A stretch of DNA of 64,000 bases. Origin: Actinomycetota bacterium (lineage in GTDB: Bacteria > Actinomycetota > CADDZG01 > WHSQ01). The notes beneath the pieces are model-generated. The model worked only from the letters and a program-made list of their open reading frames with translations. It was not told the origin of the DNA and ran no database searches. The stretch is taken from the NCBI GenBank assembly GCA_030446465.1, contig JAUJNI010000004.1, positions 1 to 64,000 on the forward strand, given 5' to 3'. This document shows, one piece after another, positions 19,790-35,121 of this stretch. Position 1 is the stretch's first letter. Every line of letters starts with the position of its first letter. The position numbers and the translations under genes are program-made.

Positions 19790-20335
19790 TTAGTCATCGA
19801 TGAACTCGGCGGGGACCGACTCGGCAAGCCACACTATCTCGTTGCCCGGATAGAACCTCACGCCCGCATCGTGTGCTTCTCTCGCACGGATCCGAAGGAC
19901 GACGACCTCCGAAGATTTCCGTTTCCCGACCACTTGTGCGGTCGATACGTCGGCCGAAAGATGGACGAACTGTCGCTTCATCGGCCGCAAGCCGTGCGAC
20001 GTGATCGAGCTGGCGCTGTGCTGAGCGGTGCCGTGCCACAGGAACTCCGGCGGCCTGGCCTCGGCTTTGGTCACCCCCCGGGGGAAGGAGTGGCCGTACA
20101 GAGCGCGGATGCGGTCGCCGCGGATCTCGAAGCGAGCCTTGTCGGAACGCTCGATCATCGAAACGAGATCGCGGCGATCGATTCGGCTCCACTTTCTCGT
20201 GCGGCGGAGGGCTTGCACCAGAGCGTCGGCCGAGCCCCAGCCTTCGTCGTCCAACTCGAGCCCGGCAGACCAGGGCTCGTGCCGCAGCAACCGGGCGACG
20301 GTGCGGCTGAGCTTGGTCAAGTCGCTGCTACGCAC
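19790..20335 (-). CDS. kptA: RNA 2'-phosphotransferase, Tpt1/KptA family
   Basis: A 181-residue protein with the family's N-terminal motif (LSRTVARLLRHEPWSAGLELDDEGWGSADAL) and NAD-binding half (FLWHGTAQHSASSITSHGL, RQFVHLSADVSTA). It transfers an internal RNA 2'-phosphate to NAD+, forming ADP-ribose 1'',2''-cyclic phosphate. In eukaryotes it finishes tRNA splicing; the bacterial role is unsettled because such RNAs are rare, although NAD-dependent phosphate capping has been proposed. Sits 16 bp downstream of the ligase gene on the same strand. Confidence 0.92.
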   Translation of the reverse strand: MRSSDLTKLSRTVARLLRHEPWSAGLELDDEGWGSADALVQALRRTRKWSRIDRRDLVSMIERSDKARFEIRGDRIRALYGHSFPRGVTKAEARPPEFLWHGTAQHSASSITSHGLRPMKRQFVHLSADVSTAQVVGKRKSSEVVVLRIRAREAHDAGVRFYPGNEIVWLAESVPAEFIDD

Positions 20336-25289: not shown

Positions 25290-26360
25290 CTACCGTGCAA
25301 TTGCCTCGCGCACGGCGCCGAAGAACGCCTCTGCGGTCTGCTCCCAGGTGGGAAGGCTCGAAGCTCGTCTGCGAGCGGCTTCCCCAAGGCGCAGACGCAA
25401 CGCTTCGTCGCGGGAGAGTCGCTCGAGCGCTGCGCTGAGCCCCTTGACATCCCCTGGAGGGACCAGCAGGCCTTCTCGTTCGTGGGTCGCCAGATAGGGA
25501 AGGTTGCCCGCTCGCCAGCCAACGACGGGCAGGCCGCCGGCCATGGCTTCCCCATAGACGGTTCCGTAGGGCTCCCTGAGGCTCGGTAGGACGAAGACGT
25601 CTGCGGCGGAATACAAGGCGGCGACGCTCTGCCTCGAGACACGGCCGTGCACGATGACCTTGCCGGCGAGGTCGGGCCGCGCCAGGCGAGCCGCTACCCT
25701 CGCCGCGTAGCGAGGTTGCACTGCCCGATCGCCGACCAGGTGCAGGCAACCTGCGCCTGGGGGTAGATGGGCGAACGCATCGAGGAGCTCGAGGAGCCCC
25801 TTGCGCTCCACCCAATTGCCGATGGACAAGAAAGCCGCGCGCGTTCCCCGCCGCAGGTCGTAGGGAACGGCTCCTGTGGTCGCAGCCGGGTCCCGGCCGG
25901 GAGGGACCACCACGATTGGACCCTCGAAGCCCTCCCGCCTCATGCCGGCGGCGAGGGAATCGCTGGCAACCAGAAGGCACCGAGCCTGGTTGTATGCGGC
26001 TCGGTCCAATGCGGCTTGCAGCCTGGTTCTCAGCGGTCCGTGATCGATCCCACCCGTAGGCTGATGCAACATCGCTATCACTGGGACCCCGGGCGTTCTC
26101 GAGAGCAGCCACGGGGCGAGGTAACCCGCGGCGATGCTGTCGATCACGAGGGCGTTGGGTGCAGCCCTAGCACTCCGTTCAAGGACGGCAGCTCCTCCAA
26201 GCGCCGGCAGGGGGAACGGTCGTTCGAGAAACGATATGAAGTCAATCCGCGCATCGTGGGCGGGAGCCAGCTCGGCAAGCCTTTGATGGTAGAGATAGCC
26301 GCCCGTAAGGGTGCTGGGATCGCCCAGCGTCACGAGGGAGATCGCAAGCATGCGAGTCAC
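25290..26360 (-). CDS. GT4-family glycosyltransferase A
   Basis: A 356-residue glycosyltransferase of the GT-B/GT4 class: C-terminal donor-binding block FLSIGNWVERKGLLELLDAF, then FVLPSLREPYGTVYGEAMAGGLPVVGW, carrying the EX7E motif. Likely cytoplasmic, transferring a sugar from a nucleotide donor; acceptor unknown. GTG 26360 was chosen because AGGAGAG lies six bases upstream. ATG 26366 and ATG 26351 are alternatives. The start region overlaps that of the divergent glycosyltransferase B, giving a tight head-to-head pair. Confidence 0.88.
   Translation of the reverse strand: MTRMLAISLVTLGDPSTLTGGYLYHQRLAELAPAHDARIDFISFLERPFPLPALGGAAVLERSARAAPNALVIDSIAAGYLAPWLLSRTPGVPVIAMLHQPTGGIDHGPLRTRLQAALDRAAYNQARCLLVASDSLAAGMRREGFEGPIVVVPPGRDPAATTGAVPYDLRRGTRAAFLSIGNWVERKGLLELLDAFAHLPPGAGCLHLVGDRAVQPRYAARVAARLARPDLAGKVIVHGRVSRQSVAALYSAADVFVLPSLREPYGTVYGEAMAGGLPVVGWRAGNLPYLATHEREGLLVPPGDVKGLSAALERLSRDEALRLRLGEAARRRASSLPTWEQTAEAFFGAVREAIAR
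26349..26354. other. GCATGC palindrome shared by divergent start codons
   Basis: On the plus strand the ATG at 26350-26352 starts glycosyltransferase B. Its complement contains an in-frame ATG of glycosyltransferase A (26351-26349). The plus ribosome-binding site (GGGAG, nine bases upstream) lies inside gene A, and the gene A ribosome-binding site (AGGAGAG) lies inside gene B. There is therefore no intergenic space for two promoters. Confidence 0.75.
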
Positions 26361-27444
26361 GCACATCTCTCCTACTGTCTTTGGGAGCGGAGGGCTCTTC
26401 GGCGGAGGGGAACGTTACCCGCTCGAGCTCAGCAGGGCACTGGCGCCGCATGTGGAGTGCGAGCTGGTCACCTTTGGCGACCAGGCGCGCGTGGTGCGGG
26501 AACCGGGTGGGCTACGGATCCGAGTCCTGCGCTCCTCTGCCCGTATGCGGGGGCATCCAGTCCATTCCATCTCGTTTGACTTGCCCGGCGCAGTAAAGAA
26601 CGCCGACCTGGTTCACGCTCACCACATGAGGAGCGCGCCGAGTCGCATCGTGGCCGTGACGGCCCGCGCACGTCGGCAGCGGCTGGCCGTGACCGACCAC
26701 GGTTTGGGTGGTGGGGGATGGGGAGGGCTTCTCCCTCGCCTCTTCGATCGCTTCTTACTGGTGTCGCGCTTCTCCGCCCTCACTCTCGGGGTTCCGGATG
26801 CCAGGACCCGGGTCATCTATGGGGGGGCCGATCCTGCACGCTTCCGGCCCGACCCAGACGTGGATCGCGTTGGCGTGCTGTACGTCGGCCGGCTCACGCC
26901 GCACAAGGGCATCGATCGGCTAATCAGGGCTCTTCCGAAAAGAGCCCGGTTGACCATCGCCGGGACCGGCGGACACGACCCCGAGCCACCCGAGAGGGAC
27001 TACCCGTTGCTGCTGGCCCAGCTCGCCGCCGACAAGGACGTCGAGTTCACCGGCGCGGTTGCCGAGGACGAGCTTCCCGGCCTGTACCGTCGCGCCGCAG
27101 TAGTGGTGCTGCCTTCGGTGCAGGAGACTTGCTACGGAAAACATGTCGAGATCTCGGAGCTCCTTGGCCTGTCCTTGCTCGAGGCGATGGCGAGCGGAAC
27201 GCCGGTCGTTTGCAGCCGCTTGGGAGGCCTGACCGAAGTAGTGAACGACGGCGAGACCGGCTTTCTCGTGCAGCCGGGCAGCGTGGAGGAGCTGCACGAC
27301 CGGATCTCGGTTGTCTTGTCCAACCCGGCGCTGGCAGCTCGAATGGGAGCCGCAGCACGGGAGCTCGTGCTCGAGCGGTTCACCTGGGACAGGTGCGCGC
27401 TGCGCTGCCTGAGCGCCTACGAAGAGCTGATGGGCCCGGGGTGA
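26350..27444 (+). CDS. GT4-family glycosyltransferase B
   Basis: A 364-residue GT-B glycosyltransferase: N-terminal acceptor domain begins MRVTHISPTVFGSGGLFGGG, donor domain has VGVLYVGRLTPHKGIDRLIRAL, LPSVQETCYGKHVEISELLG and LSLLEAMASGTPVVCSRLGG, the last holding the EX7E motif. ATG 26350 follows GGGAG at nine bases. Only 14 bp from the convergent PTPS-like gene. Its linkage to the PTPS-like, MDR and RibA-fusion genes suggests a glycosylated small-molecule product, but this is inference. Confidence 0.9.
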   Translation: MRVTHISPTVFGSGGLFGGGERYPLELSRALAPHVECELVTFGDQARVVREPGGLRIRVLRSSARMRGHPVHSISFDLPGAVKNADLVHAHHMRSAPSRIVAVTARARRQRLAVTDHGLGGGGWGGLLPRLFDRFLLVSRFSALTLGVPDARTRVIYGGADPARFRPDPDVDRVGVLYVGRLTPHKGIDRLIRALPKRARLTIAGTGGHDPEPPERDYPLLLAQLAADKDVEFTGAVAEDELPGLYRRAAVVVLPSVQETCYGKHVEISELLGLSLLEAMASGTPVVCSRLGGLTEVVNDGETGFLVQPGSVEELHDRISVVLSNPALAARMGAAARELVLERFTWDRCALRCLSAYEELMGPG

Positions 27445-27458
27445 TGGGGGCTCAAGCC

Positions 27459-27848
27459 CTAGCCGCCCGGGTCGACCGGGGCCTCGTAGCCGCCATAAGC
27501 GACCGGCGACTCCCACACCTTGACCGCCAGGGTCTCGCCCCCTCCGGTTCGCACCGCCTCGGCGAGTGCGTCGTGAACCCACCTGGCGAAGACCTCTACG
27601 GTTACTGCCTCGGCTTCCGGGGGCCTTATCACCTCATCCAGATTGGCATCGCGCACGGACGAGAGTGTGTCTGCTAGCGCGGCGCCCAGGACGTCCAGGT
27701 CGCACGCCATCCCCCGCTCGTCGAGGCCGCCGCGTCTCACCGAGACCTCGATCCTGTAATCGTGGTGGTGGAGCTGACCCTCAGGACCTTCCATGCCGGG
27801 CATGACGTGCAGCGCACGGAGCTCGGCTCCAGTCCCCACTTCGTACAT
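27459..27848 (-). CDS. 6-pyruvoyl-tetrahydropterin synthase family, PTPS-III-like
   Basis: A 129-residue T-fold protein. Zinc ligands include the His in ELRALHVMP and the HHH in GQLHHHDYRIEVSV. The catalytic Cys of the CxxxHGH motif of PTPS/QueD is replaced by Glu (EGQLHHH), the substitution known from PTPS-III enzymes that make 6-hydroxymethyl-dihydropterin from dihydroneopterin triphosphate. Further conserved parts: ACDLDVLGAALADTL and TVEVFARWVHDAL. Encoded 19 bp downstream of the MDR dehydrogenase on the same strand. Confidence 0.85.
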   Translation of the reverse strand: MYEVGTGAELRALHVMPGMEGPEGQLHHHDYRIEVSVRRGGLDERGMACDLDVLGAALADTLSSVRDANLDEVIRPPEAEAVTVEVFARWVHDALAEAVRTGGGETLAVKVWESPVAYGGYEAPVDPGG

Positions 27849-27867
27849 GAGCCACAGGGTAGCCGGA

Positions 27868-28875
27868 TCAGTCGTAGCGCAGGGCGGCGTGCATCAAGCC
27901 TTCCTCTGCCCGGTCGATCGCTGCGAATGCTCCGGCAGCGTCTGAGAACGCAAACTCGTGAGTCGCCACCGACGCCAGAGGAAGCTCGTGCATCAGCGAG
28001 GCGGCCGCTTCTTGGGCTGCCGCTTCCCTGCGTCGCTCGAGCGTCCAAGTTCCCGACAGGTGCTGTGGAATGGTCGACACTTGAGTGCTCTTGATCGACA
28101 ATCGCCTCCTGTGAAACTCACGTCCAAGAGGAAGCGACACATTCTTGGACCCGAACCACGAAGCGACCAGCACGACTCCCTCATGACCGAGCAGTTCCAG
28201 GCCCAGCTCCAGCACGTCCGGATTACCGCTGACATCGATCGCGAGACGAACGCCCTCTTTATTGGTGGCTGCTTCCACCGCGGCCCGAACCTCATCGGTT
28301 GCTACCGCGGTGAGGCCGAGCGACGCGGCGACGTCCCTGCGCCACTGTCTGGGCTCCGCACAGATCACCGTGGCGCCGGCTCGCTCGAGGAGCAGCGTCG
28401 TCAGCAATCCCACAACTCCCAGGCCGAACACCACGATCCGCTCGTTGCGCACCTTTGCTGCGTCCAGAGTTATCTGGAGCGCCGTCTCGACGAGCGGAAA
28501 GAGCGTTCCGCGGCGGGGATCGATGCCGGGAAGCAGAATCAGCTCCGACGTGTCAGCAACGAAAAGGTCCTGATGAGGATGGAACGCAAACACCAAAGAC
28601 CCCTCGGCCAGTTCGCTGTTGGAGCGCTCGACTCGAGCCATACAGCTGTAGCCATATCGAAAGGGGTAGGAGAAGGTTCCGCCCAGTGCGTCGAGGGTCA
28701 TGTCCAGCGCAACGTCGTCGTCTATCTCTCCTCGATAAGCGAGCATCTCAGTTCCGGCGCTGATGCCGGAATAGCGCGTGCGCAGGAGGACCTGGTTGTC
28801 CTGCAGCGCCGGCAGCTCGACGGTACGCAGCTCAACTCGGCGCGGGGCAACGAAGTGGACGGCCGTGGCCTTCAC
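27868..28875 (-). CDS. MDR-superfamily dehydrogenase, zinc-less type
   Basis: A 335-residue medium-chain dehydrogenase/reductase: N-terminal GroES-like half (VLLRTRYSGISAGTEMLAYRG) and Rossmann half (RIVVFGLGVVGLLTTLLLERAGATVICAE, then IDVSGNPDVLELGLELLG). The catalytic-zinc Cys and the four-Cys structural lobe of alcohol dehydrogenases are absent; ISAGTE replaces the usual GxCxTD. This matches the bacteriochlorophyllide-dehydrogenase/threonine-like subgroup often found beside PTPS genes. It probably oxidises or reduces an alcohol on a pterin- or sugar-like compound. Divergent from the RibA fusion gene with 70 bp between starts. Confidence 0.85.
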   Translation of the reverse strand: MKATAVHFVAPRRVELRTVELPALQDNQVLLRTRYSGISAGTEMLAYRGEIDDDVALDMTLDALGGTFSYPFRYGYSCMARVERSNSELAEGSLVFAFHPHQDLFVADTSELILLPGIDPRRGTLFPLVETALQITLDAAKVRNERIVVFGLGVVGLLTTLLLERAGATVICAEPRQWRRDVAASLGLTAVATDEVRAAVEAATNKEGVRLAIDVSGNPDVLELGLELLGHEGVVLVASWFGSKNVSLPLGREFHRRRLSIKSTQVSTIPQHLSGTWTLERRREAAAQEAAASLMHELPLASVATHEFAFSDAAGAFAAIDRAEEGLMHAALRYD

Positions 28876-28945
28876 GATCCCTTTCTGTCTCGAGGCAAAG
28901 CTCAGGATACGGTTTGTATTTCGTCAGCTAGAGCCGGTGGGGGCA

Positions 28946-30319
28946 ATGCATAGCGAAGAGTCAGAGATCTTCTCCAATCGACAGAACGTCATACCCGCCG
29001 TCCGGGAGGTCGCCAGCCTCCGGCTCCCGACCACCGCCGGCGAGTTTGCCGCGCATGCATTTGAGTGTGCGTCCGGTTTCGTATGCATTGCTTTAGTGAA
29101 GGGGGACATCAAGGGTGCACAGTCCGTGCTCGCGCGAGTTCATTCGGAATGCTTGACCGGAGATGCTCTCGGCTCACTGCGGTGCGACTGCGGTGTCCAG
29201 CTGAAGACCGCAATGAGAGCGATCGCGGCGGAGGGCCGGGGGGTCCTCGTCTATGCAACCGGTCACGAGGGCCGGGGTATTGGCTTGATCGACAAGCTTC
29301 GGGCATACGTCGAGCAGGACCAAGGCGCCGACACCGTCGACGCGAACCTGCACCTGGGTCTGCCGCTCGATAGCCGCGACTACCGCGAGGCCGCGGCGGT
29401 TATCAGGGCTCTCGGCGTGGCTTCTGTGCGGTTGATGACGAACAATCCCGGCAAAGTAGCCGGTCTTCGCCAGGCCGGAGTGGAAGTCGAGTCGGTCAAG
29501 GGCGTTCCAACCGCGGGCCACACCCGCAACCTTCGTTACCTGACGACCAAGCAAGTGCGGCTTGGGCATCTCAGCCCGCTCGGCGACGAGATCGTCGCGA
29601 GCGAAGCCGTTCCCACCGACGTCAGCGCGTTGCTCGGAGAGGTCAAACCACACGGCTCCCGGCCCTACGTGGTGCTCAAGTACGCGCAGACTCTCGACGG
29701 CCGCATCGCAACTTCGACCGGCGACTCGAAATGGATCAGCGGGACTGCGGAAAGAACCATCTCTCATGCTTTGCGCGCGCGCTGTGACGCCGTCATGGTC
29801 GGCATCGGAACGGTGCTGAAGGACGATCCTCAACTGACGGTGCGTCTGATTGCAGGTGCGTCGCCTCTACGAGTGATCGTGGATTCGACGCTCGCCGTCC
29901 CCCTGACCGCTCTAGTACTCAGCGAAGAGGTCGGAACGTTGGTCCTTACCACTCACAGGGCCGATGCTGATAAGCGGCGCGCTCTGCAAGAGATGAACGT
30001 GGGGGTCAGGGAGGTGGACGAAGGAGCCGACGGAGTCGACCTCACCTCGGCCCTCAGAGCTCTCCGAGAGATGGGCGTCGAGTCCTTGTTGGTCGAGGGA
30101 GGGGCGCGTCTCATCACCTCACTGCTCGCCGCCTCATTGGTCGACCGCATCATCGTGGCCATTGCGCCCATGGTCATCGGCAAGGGCACCGAAGGGGTGG
30201 GGGAGCTCGGGGTGGCGCGCATCTCTCAGGGGTTGGCGCTTAGCAACCGTTCGATGTATGTGGTCGACCGGGACGTGGTGATGGCCTGGGATGTTGGAGA
30301 CACTCGCTCTTCCGCCTGA
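28946..30319 (+). CDS. ribA: GTP cyclohydrolase II fused to RibD reductase domain
   Basis: A 457-residue two-domain protein. GTP cyclohydrolase II spans about 25-210 with the zinc Cys set (HSECLTGDALGSLRCDCG), the YATGHEGRGIGL block and KLRAYVEQDQGADTVDAN; the Tyr equivalent to E. coli Tyr105 is kept, which favours normal GCH II chemistry. The C-terminal 240 residues are a RibD reductase domain (YVVLKYAQTLDGRIATSTG, WISG, DAVMVGIGTVLKDDPQL, LLVEGGARL). There is no RibD deaminase domain and no RibB. The fusion would supply and reduce pyrimidine intermediates, either for riboflavin or for a dedicated product. ATG 28946 follows GTGGGGG. Confidence 0.9.
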   Translation: MHSEESEIFSNRQNVIPAVREVASLRLPTTAGEFAAHAFECASGFVCIALVKGDIKGAQSVLARVHSECLTGDALGSLRCDCGVQLKTAMRAIAAEGRGVLVYATGHEGRGIGLIDKLRAYVEQDQGADTVDANLHLGLPLDSRDYREAAAVIRALGVASVRLMTNNPGKVAGLRQAGVEVESVKGVPTAGHTRNLRYLTTKQVRLGHLSPLGDEIVASEAVPTDVSALLGEVKPHGSRPYVVLKYAQTLDGRIATSTGDSKWISGTAERTISHALRARCDAVMVGIGTVLKDDPQLTVRLIAGASPLRVIVDSTLAVPLTALVLSEEVGTLVLTTHRADADKRRALQEMNVGVREVDEGADGVDLTSALRALREMGVESLLVEGGARLITSLLAASLVDRIIVAIAPMVIGKGTEGVGELGVARISQGLALSNRSMYVVDRDVVMAWDVGDTRSSA

Positions 30320-31691: not shown

Positions 31692-32777
31692 ATGCCGCAC
31701 AAAGTCAAGGGAGTCGTGTCGCGCGCCAAGGGTGCGCCCGTCGAGCTAACAGACATCGTGGTCCCCGATCCCGGACCCGGCGAAGTTGTGGTCGGAGTCC
31801 AAGCGTGCGGGGTGTGCCACACCGACCTGCATTACCGCGAGGGGGCGGTCAACGACGAGTTCCCCTTCCTGCTCGGGCACGAGGCCGCGGGAACGGTGGA
31901 GTCGGTGGGAGAGGGCGTGGTGGACCTGGCCCCCGGCGACTTCGTCGTGCTCGCATGGCGGGCCCCCTGCGGCACCTGCCGGTCCTGCCGTCGAGGGCGA
32001 CCGTGGTACTGCTTCGGGAGTCTCAACGCGGCCCAGGTGATGACGCTCGAGGATGGGACGCCTCTCAGCCCCGCGCTCGGCATAGGCGCGTTTGCAGAAA
32101 AGACGGTCGTGGCGGCCGGGCAGGCCGTGCCGGTGGATCCGGCCGCAGCACCCGAGCCCGCCGGCCTGATCGGGTGCGGCATCATGGCCGGCTTTGGAGC
32201 GGCGGTGAACACCGGCAACGTCCAGCGCGGCGACACCGTGGCGGTGTTCGGATGCGGGGGAGTGGGCGACGCTGCGATTGCCGGGGCCGCCCTTGCCGGC
32301 GCGGGCAAGGTGATTGCGGTGGACCTCGACCCACGAAAGCTCGAGTGGGCCGGGGACTTCGGGGCCACCGATGTCGTGAACGCAAGCGAGCAGGACCCGG
32401 TGGAGGCCGTCAAGGAGCTTACCGGCGGCTTGGGCGTGGACGTGGCGATCGAGGCCGTCGGCCACCCCAAGGTGCTCGAGCAAGCGTTCTACTCACGCGA
32501 TCTTGCCGGCACCCTGGTTCAGGTAGGGGTGCCGGACCCCACGATGCGGATCGACCTGCCGATGCTCGAGTTCTTCGGAAGGGGAGGGGCTTTGAAGCCG
32601 TCGTGGTACGGCGACTGCCTGCCGACACGCGACTTCCCCATCCTCATCGATCTCTACCGCAGCGGGCGCCTCGACCTCGATCGTTTCGTGTCCGAGACGA
32701 TCTCGTTGGAAGAGGTCGAGGAGGCCTTCGGCAAGATGCAAAAAGGAGAGGTGCTTCGCTCCGTGGTGGTGATCTGA
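31692..32777 (+). CDS. mscR: S-(hydroxymethyl)mycothiol dehydrogenase
   Basis: A 361-residue zinc alcohol dehydrogenase: catalytic-zinc ligands in [13 protein letters not shown] and [15 protein letters not shown], structural zinc lobe [15 protein letters not shown], Rossmann motif [18 protein letters not shown]. The segments [14 protein letters not shown] and [20 protein letters not shown] are diagnostic of the mycothiol-dependent formaldehyde dehydrogenase/S-nitrosomycothiol reductase. The enzyme oxidises the formaldehyde-mycothiol adduct. Its presence is the strongest sequence argument for an actinobacterium. Confidence 0.95.
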
Positions 32778-34338: not shown

Positions 34339-35121
34339 ATGAGCCAGCTTCGGGATGGCTTCGGTGCGCTGCCCAACCTGGTGGTGATCGGGGCCATGAA
34401 GTGCGGGACCAGCGCACTCCATCGGTATCTGGACCGGCACCCGCAGATCGAAATGTCCGAGCCCAAGGAGCTCAACTTCTTCTTCGGCCCGTCGACCAGC
34501 GCGCAGGACGAGAGCCACCCGGCCCAGGAGCGGGGCCGCGAGTGGTCGTCGGGAAACTGGCACCGCGGCTCTCAGTGGTACTCACGACACTTTCGAGGGG
34601 AAGCGATTGCACGGGGGGAGTCCTCCCCCGGCTACACCTCACCGTCGCATGAGGGTGTCGCACAGCGGATGGCCCGGATGATCCCGGCTGCTCGGCTTAT
34701 CTACCTGGTGCGGGACCCGGTTGATCGGGCGGTCTCCCAGTACCGGCATCACCGCAGTGAGGGGACCGAGAGTAGGCCGATGGAAAAGGCGCTGCTTGAC
34801 CCGGACAGTCAATACCTGTCGCGGGGCCGCTATTACGAGAGATTGGTGCCATTCCTGGAGCGCTTCGCCAGACACCAGATCGCCATCGTGTCTGCAGAGG
34901 AGCTCCTCACGCGCCGGAGAGCGACCTTGTTGTTGTTATTCCGCTTCGTGGGCGTCGACGAGGGCTTCTGGTCGAGCGACCTGCAGCGGCTTCACCATTG
35001 CAACGGGGAGACAGCTCAACTAGACAGCCGGCTTCGCCGGCGGCTGAGCGAGGCGTTTGCGCATGATGCGGATCGCTTGCGCGAGCTTGCGGGCCGTGAC
35101 TTCCCCGCATGGTCTGTGTGA
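34339..35121 (+). CDS. PAPS-dependent sulfotransferase
   Basis: A 260-residue sulfotransferase fold: the 5'-phosphosulfate-binding loop LPNLVVIGAMKCGTSALHRYL, SEPKELNFFF, and the 3'-phosphate block LIYLVRDPVDRAVSQYRHH. Usually such proteins sulfate carbohydrates or lipids at the membrane. No neighbour shows the acceptor. Follows the divergent amidohydrolase by 35 bp. Starts ATG 34339. Confidence 0.88.
   Translation: MSQLRDGFGALPNLVVIGAMKCGTSALHRYLDRHPQIEMSEPKELNFFFGPSTSAQDESHPAQERGREWSSGNWHRGSQWYSRHFRGEAIARGESSPGYTSPSHEGVAQRMARMIPAARLIYLVRDPVDRAVSQYRHHRSEGTESRPMEKALLDPDSQYLSRGRYYERLVPFLERFARHQIAIVSAEELLTRRRATLLLLFRFVGVDEGFWSSDLQRLHHCNGETAQLDSRLRRRLSEAFAHDADRLRELAGRDFPAWSV

Follow-up and report, generated by a model that had tools for sequence, protein, structure and literature searches.

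What does a bacterium with a complete riboflavin operon do with a second set of enzymes for opening GTP and reducing the product? The question is raised by five genes at positions 25290-30319 of a 64,000-nucleotide stretch of Actinomycetota DNA (assembly GCA_030446465.1, contig JAUJNI010000004.1, positions 1 to 64,000; hereafter the window). They encode two GT4 glycosyltransferases (GTa and GTb), a PTPS-like protein, a zinc-less MDR-family dehydrogenase and a fusion of GTP cyclohydrolase II (GCHII) with the RibD_C reductase domain. An earlier note, made from the sequence alone, had placed these five within 5 kb and proposed a dedicated, non-riboflavin route from GTP. Profile matches located all five, and the dedicated route is strongly supported by neighbourhoods conserved in other genomes together with a separate, complete riboflavin operon in the same genome. 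With moderate confidence, we favour a reading in which the cassette is a branch off the riboflavin route, apart from the host's vitamin B2 operon, and its product is most likely a small molecule or cofactor resembling a glycosylated 2-amino (ribityl)pterin.

Conservation of the cassette and a separate riboflavin operon

The content of the host genome (2.76 Mb, 95.7% complete, with the window on contig C2) was assessed by single-family searches. These revealed a second GCHII at C6:894758 and a full RibD at C6:896484, both within a contiguous ribD-ribE-ribBA-ribH operon separate from the cassette, as well as two short RibD_C-family reductases. FolE (C4:134736) adjoins FolB (C4:136166). Because a full rib operon and folE and folB lie elsewhere, the cassette is not required for riboflavin or folate, and the possibility that the fusion is the host's sole riboflavin enzyme is ruled out by the complete operon. 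Nor is the cassette itself a riboflavin operon, in which ribB, ribE and ribH would stand alongside ribA and ribD: these three genes are absent from it, as the earlier note had read, and from every cluster inspected. A second GTP cyclohydrolase I homologue (G000:C6:2405-2944, in a 321-codon frame) lies outside the window and apart from folE-folB.

Chance grouping of the five genes is excluded because three further genera of the family have the identical arrangement, in order and in orientations, with 49-63% protein identity. Neither circumstance that the earlier note had named as speaking against a dedicated pathway (neighbourhoods without conservation, or a fusion acting as sole riboflavin enzyme) therefore holds. 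Within the class, the PTPS gene was found in four of 24 genomes and strong MDR homologues (E < 1e-100) in the same four; given this co-occurrence, the cassette looks like an accessory unit gained and lost as a whole.

A GTDB genome scan with the PTPS alignment returned 24 close actinobacterial loci, three of which are on the same contigs as the relatives in those three genera. Geodermatophilus, Blastococcus, Virgisporangium, Desertimonas, Trebonia and metagenome-assembled genomes of Acidimicrobiia are among them. The MDR gene adjoins the PTPS gene in all 24 except L032, where the RibA-RibD_C and PTPS genes are spaced too tightly for an MDR gene, perhaps through a deletion or an assembly fault. 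Nearly all have the fusion close by (L021 has a separate RibA-like gene only, and L039 the RibD_C part only), and genes for an FkbM-type methyltransferase, a histidine phosphatase and a CDP-alcohol phosphatidyltransferase recur near some of them.

When the phylum was searched with the MDR alignment, 48 of 397 genomes gave matches. One actinobacterial family has RibD_C-MDR-PTPS-GTa operons; large Streptomyces-like genomes hold a CDP-alcohol transferase, MDR, PTPS, GT4, methyltransferase, creatininase and GCHII together; at L130 the MDR stands alone, without the rest. The core, consisting of a GTP-opening enzyme/RibD_C, MDR, PTPS-like protein and GT4, occurs in dozens of loci of Actinomycetota, Alpha- and Gammaproteobacteria and haloarchaea. 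Plasmid records with the core come from Streptomyces fungicidicus, Microbacterium, Agrobacterium, Rhizobium, Peteryoungia, Palleronia, Methylosinus and Thiodictyon among bacteria, and from Haloarcula, Natronorubrum, Halobellus, Haladaptatus and Halomicrococcus among haloarchaea; a few plasmid clusters have no GT4 beside PTPS. The association of GCHII, PTPS-like proteins and glycosyltransferases, which the earlier note gave for some actinobacteria, is real but was drawn too narrowly, since rhizobia, Methylosinus, Thiodictyon and haloarchaea show it too. Beside the MDR gene of Haloarcula sp. GH36 and of Natrarchaeobaculum lies a gene for an archaeal GTP cyclohydrolase IIa; ArfA, a Haloferax volcanii relative of that enzyme, is needed for riboflavin (PMC8305020). 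Several clusters carry LPG-synthase-TM (flippase-like) and sulfatase-superfamily genes. Rhizobial and Thiodictyon clusters (L141, L142, L148 and L150) have a cytochrome b561 gene beside the RibD family gene, which hints that the product acts in redox chemistry.

The window's cassette belongs with the SCO6650/SCO6655-type clusters, which we define by adjacency of the genes for MDR, PTPS-like protein and GT4 and by the presence nearby of a GTP-opening enzyme, RibD_C or both. CDP-alcohol transferase and class I methyltransferase genes are frequent, variable members of these clusters and were not taken as defining; both are absent from 25290-30319 and from the scanned stretch 15000-42000. A literature search, including paired annotation names, returned no account of the whole cluster, of its proteobacterial and archaeal reach or of its product.

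Enzyme residues, a proposed pathway and its alternatives

The GCHII part of the fusion has the zinc cysteines and the switch tyrosine (E. coli Tyr105), and all eight GTP cyclohydrolase II residues compared (E. coli C54, C65, C67, E92, R94, Y105, D126 and R128) are identical. The fusion scores 212.7 bits against NF001591, above the cut-off of 148, and 203.6 bits against TIGR00505, marginally below the cut-off of 205.85. As the earlier note held, it has no RibD deaminase: no deaminase motif was found, the domain scan shows GTP_cyclohydro2 and RibD_C only and, with the N-terminal deaminase domain absent, the protein is not a bifunctional RibD. Alignment of 11 cluster members showed RibD_C likewise without a deaminase in every one. 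The host's own RibD and the RibD_C domain of the fusion align well; the fusion scores slightly higher against the archaeal diaminopyrimidine reductase model (156.7 bits) than against bacterial RibD (141.6 bits).

The PTPS-like protein is encoded by the sole PTPS gene in the host genome. Aligned with E. coli QueD, it retains the zinc histidines H14, H27 and H29 and the pterin-anchoring Glu113, and Glu23 occupies the position of the catalytic Cys27, a substitution that the earlier note had recognized. The catalytic Asp-His dyad is missing, with Arg/Asp at E. coli D70/H71; relatives have Glu, Ala, Asp or Arg with Gly or Asp there. Three kinds can be told apart: zinc site plus Glu (the window and haloarchaea), zinc site plus Ala (one actinobacterial family), and loss of the third histidine with Ala (Streptomyces and proteobacteria). 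The anchor Glu is retained in all true PTPS-like cluster members; the Natrarchaeobaculum protein at the PTPS position appears to be non-homologous. The AlphaFold model (pLDDT 90.5) best matches SCO6650 (3d7j, TM 0.82), with QueD next, and SCO6650 is the best match by sequence as well. We rejected identity with QueD (6-carboxytetrahydropterin synthase), as Cys27 and Asp70-His71 are absent and the score against the QueD model TIGR03367 is 35.9 bits (cut-off 89.25); the only QueC-family match in the host genome is marginal. Identity with PTPS-III was also rejected: the Glu-for-Cys exchange and the zinc histidines are present, but the Asp-His dyad is absent and the host has FolB, so that the earlier label "PTPS-III-like" was too strong. 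The protein probably still binds a 2-amino-4-oxo ring, to judge from its residues, and does not perform the classic reaction, which is consistent with a substrate never exposed to a deaminase.

In the MDR protein only the PF00107 cofactor domain was matched, with no match to the GroES-like ADH_N. Alignment with the zinc MDR encoded at 31692-32777 bore out the earlier reading of a zinc-less enzyme: the catalytic zinc ligands are lost (GVCH to GISA, GHE to GYS) and the structural-zinc lobe is missing. Catalytic and structural ligands are absent from the cluster homologues too, and these proteins are not zinc-dependent alcohol dehydrogenases. The MDR model folds like the sorbitol and threonine dehydrogenases of the MDR family, and the best NCBIfam model is BchC at 72 bits, far under its cut-off of 291. 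The protein is probably a zinc-independent hydride transferase. The aligned zinc MDR (plus strand) is a mycothiol-dependent formaldehyde dehydrogenase (TIGR03451, 649 bits), which suggests that the host uses mycothiol.

The residue at the cyclohydrolase switch position divides the clusters. A creatininase-family gene, of the FAPy-deformylase type, was found in the stretch read at all 14 loci whose GCHII lacks the switch Tyr, and at none of the 40 (window included) whose GCHII has Tyr at the residue matching E. coli Tyr105, both counts being made after duplicate removal; a family search found no such gene anywhere in the host genome. The nominal Fisher value for this split is 3e-13, a figure that ignores relatedness. 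The residues replacing Tyr are Met, His, Leu and Gln. Six loci of one actinobacterial family (L163, L166, L168, L173, L174 and L176) have Met, Leu, His or Gln, all with a creatininase-family gene. Spoonamore and co-workers reportedly found in 2006 that S. coelicolor SCO6655, with Met replacing Tyr, makes a formylated pyrimidine. The archaeal formamide hydrolase ArfB is a member of the creatininase family. The simplest reading of the split is that all clusters converge on the same deformylated diaminopyrimidine: judging from sequence comparison, every version seems to yield 2,5-diamino-6-ribosylamino-4(3H)-pyrimidinone 5'-phosphate, in one step or two, followed by reduction without deamination. 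The pattern is consistent and supports a dedicated pathway, although we do not claim that the loci are independent. If the rule is right, it offers a simple sequence test of the cyclohydrolase product of each cluster.

From these residues and comparisons, a five-step route can be proposed. First, the GCHII domain would open GTP to the 2,5-diamino-6-ribosylamino compound named above. Second, the fused RibD_C would reduce its ribosyl to a ribityl group and, there being no deaminase, the 2-amino group would be retained, an order of steps that resembles the fungal and archaeal one. Third, the PTPS-like protein may hold the 2-amino-4-oxo ring through Glu113 and, with zinc and Glu23, carry out a ring-closing or side-chain reaction, which would differ from those of PTPS, QueD and PTPS-III. 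Fourth, the zinc-less MDR would transfer hydride on the product and, fifth, GTa, joined by GTb in the window's subset, would add sugar. The earlier note had suggested a reduced pyrimidine or pterin bearing sugars; the route part of that suggestion stands, while the individual reactions, the sequence in which they run and the final product we infer.

Several points weigh against this reading. The preference of RibD_C for the diamino substrate depends on small score differences. A single change on the MDR tree (one row of which, L170, is very long and probably mis-framed) explains the Tyr/creatininase split, which does not then represent many independent replicates, and short contigs could hide creatininase or other genes. 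Some clusters have RibD_C without a nearby GCHII, or the reverse, and either step may come from elsewhere. Finally, lacking Asp-His and in some lineages the zinc site, the PTPS-like protein may have no catalytic role and serve instead for binding or as a scaffold.

More tentatively, and with rather less confidence than we place in the branch itself, we suggest that bacteria and haloarchaea share a pathway to a glycosylated molecule of ribityl-pterin or flavin-like type, made without a deaminase, which may be a membrane-linked redox cofactor. The pathway would have interchangeable starts (a Tyr-type GCHII, or a formyl-forming cyclohydrolase with a creatininase-family deformylase) and a PTPS fold repurposed for a new reaction.

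Of the alternatives, one makes the product a membrane-linked or exported redox cofactor, formed by attaching a ribityl-pterin to a lipid or phosphoalcohol, glycosylating it and flipping it, with the window holding a reduced form of the system. The recurring CDP-alcohol phosphatidyltransferase, LPG-synthase-TM and sulfatase-superfamily genes and the cytochrome b561 of the rhizobial and Thiodictyon clusters point this way, as do four CDP-alcohol phosphotransferases encoded elsewhere in the host genome. We consider it unlikely, however, since none of the recurring extra genes is in the window's cassette or in those of its nearest relatives, and the four phosphotransferases may be ordinary phospholipid enzymes. 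Somewhat more doubtful is an auxiliary role for the fusion in riboflavin or F420-precursor synthesis, where it would raise flux under some condition, among unrelated PTPS-like, MDR and glycosyltransferase neighbours. Its intact GCHII residues and the good alignment of its RibD_C with the host's RibD would let it feed a common pool, but the order of those neighbours is conserved across bacteria and archaea, the deaminase required before reduction in the bacterial riboflavin order is missing, and the host's full rib operon lies elsewhere while the clusters inspected hold no ribB, ribE or ribH. A PTPS-III folate bypass, in which a Glu-for-Cys PTPS like the malarial enzyme (PMC2229834) replaces dihydroneopterin aldolase and the other genes tailor pterins derived from GTP cyclohydrolase I, two homologues of which could supply dihydroneopterin triphosphate, is very improbable given the lost Asp-His dyad, FolB beside FolE, the lack of folate genes in any cluster, and conserved partners that are GCHII or GTP cyclohydrolase IIa with RibD_C, not GTP cyclohydrolase I.

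Gene layout and neighbouring genes

The MDR gene lies upstream of the PTPS gene on the same strand with a gap of 19 bases, and is divergent from the fusion gene, with about 70 bases between them if the fusion starts at 28946. That start is probably about right, because the GTG at 28778 would overlap the divergent MDR gene. GTa and GTb have head-to-head starts; the GTb open reading frame opens at 26311, and its start is probably 26350, to which the starts of homologues correspond.

Table 1. Genes of the cassette and domains of the fusion, in window coordinates
Feature	Position	Strand	Evidence
GTa, GT4 glycosyltransferase	25290..26366	-	PF00534 E 2.2e-27
GTb, second GT4 glycosyltransferase	26350..27444	+	PF00534 E 1.3e-35
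PTPS-like T-fold protein	27459..27848	-	PF01242 E 1.3e-18
Zinc-less MDR-family dehydrogenase	27868..28875	-	PF00107 E 8.3e-16
GTP cyclohydrolase II-RibD_C fusion	28946..30319	+	PF00925 E 2.5e-58, PF01872 E 5.6e-52
GCHII domain of fusion	29009..29491	+	family-search coordinates
RibD_C reductase domain of fusion	29663..30280	+	family-search coordinates, alignment

GTa is the conserved glycosyltransferase: it has orthologues in L013, L014 and L015 (50-55% identity) and in most other clusters, and in most relatives its gene comes immediately downstream of that for PTPS. GTb is limited to the window's subset and absent from many relatives. Where it is missing, as in L031 and L037, MDR-PTPS-GTa makes up a single operon, so that GTb probably entered later between PTPS and GTa.

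An anti-phage defence role was dropped, PADLOC having matched none of the five proteins. Outside the cassette, the window encodes a KptA/Tpt1-family RNA 2'-phosphotransferase at 19790-20335 (minus strand; PF01885, E 5.1e-35) and, about 4 kb from the cassette, a sulfotransferase at 34339-35121 (plus strand; PF13469, E 1.7e-18), which is not conserved with the cassette in relatives.

Comparison with known systems

If the preferred reading of a dedicated branch is right, genes annotated "zinc-binding alcohol dehydrogenase", "6-carboxytetrahydropterin synthase" and "RibD family protein" form a widespread set that belongs to one unassigned pathway in Bacteria and Archaea, and the compact version, with its first two steps on one polypeptide, is convenient for reconstituting that pathway and finding its product.

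Toxoflavin-type biosynthesis likewise feeds a specialised product from dedicated GCHII and RibD homologues, but there a RibD-like protein and a methyltransferase act on an azapteridine, and it is not known to have a PTPS-like/MDR/GT4 core. With PTPS-III of Plasmodium and of the bacterial folate bypass, the window's protein shares Glu for the active-site Cys and the retained zinc histidines; it differs in the lost Asp-His dyad, the presence of FolB and the lack of folate genes nearby.

In archaea, the route to riboflavin and F420 begins with ArfA, ArfB and ArfC. There, as proposed here, GTP is opened, deformylated and reduced before deamination to give a 2-amino ribityl pyrimidine phosphate. 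ArfA and an arfB candidate are named in PMC8305020. GTP cyclohydrolase IIa takes the place of GCHII in haloarchaeal clusters, whereas in the window a bacterial GCHII-RibD_C fusion would perform the first two steps and is not the host's riboflavin route.

The closest counterpart is the orphan SCO6650/SCO6655 cluster of Streptomyces, in which MDR, PTPS-like, GT4 and GCHII genes likewise occur together, in the order MDR-PTPS-GT4 in Streptomyces-like genomes. The Streptomyces form has been partly studied: SCO6650, a PTPS homologue of known structure (3d7j), reportedly has no PTPS activity, and SCO6655, a GCHII homologue, reportedly makes FAPy, the formylated pyrimidine. The kind of cluster is therefore already known. 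The window's version differs in its Tyr-type GCHII fused to RibD_C, in its second glycosyltransferase, in the absence of creatininase, methyltransferase and CDP-alcohol transferase genes, and in a PTPS-like protein with an intact zinc triad and Glu for Cys. The cassette is thus a compact version of an orphan cluster that was already on record.

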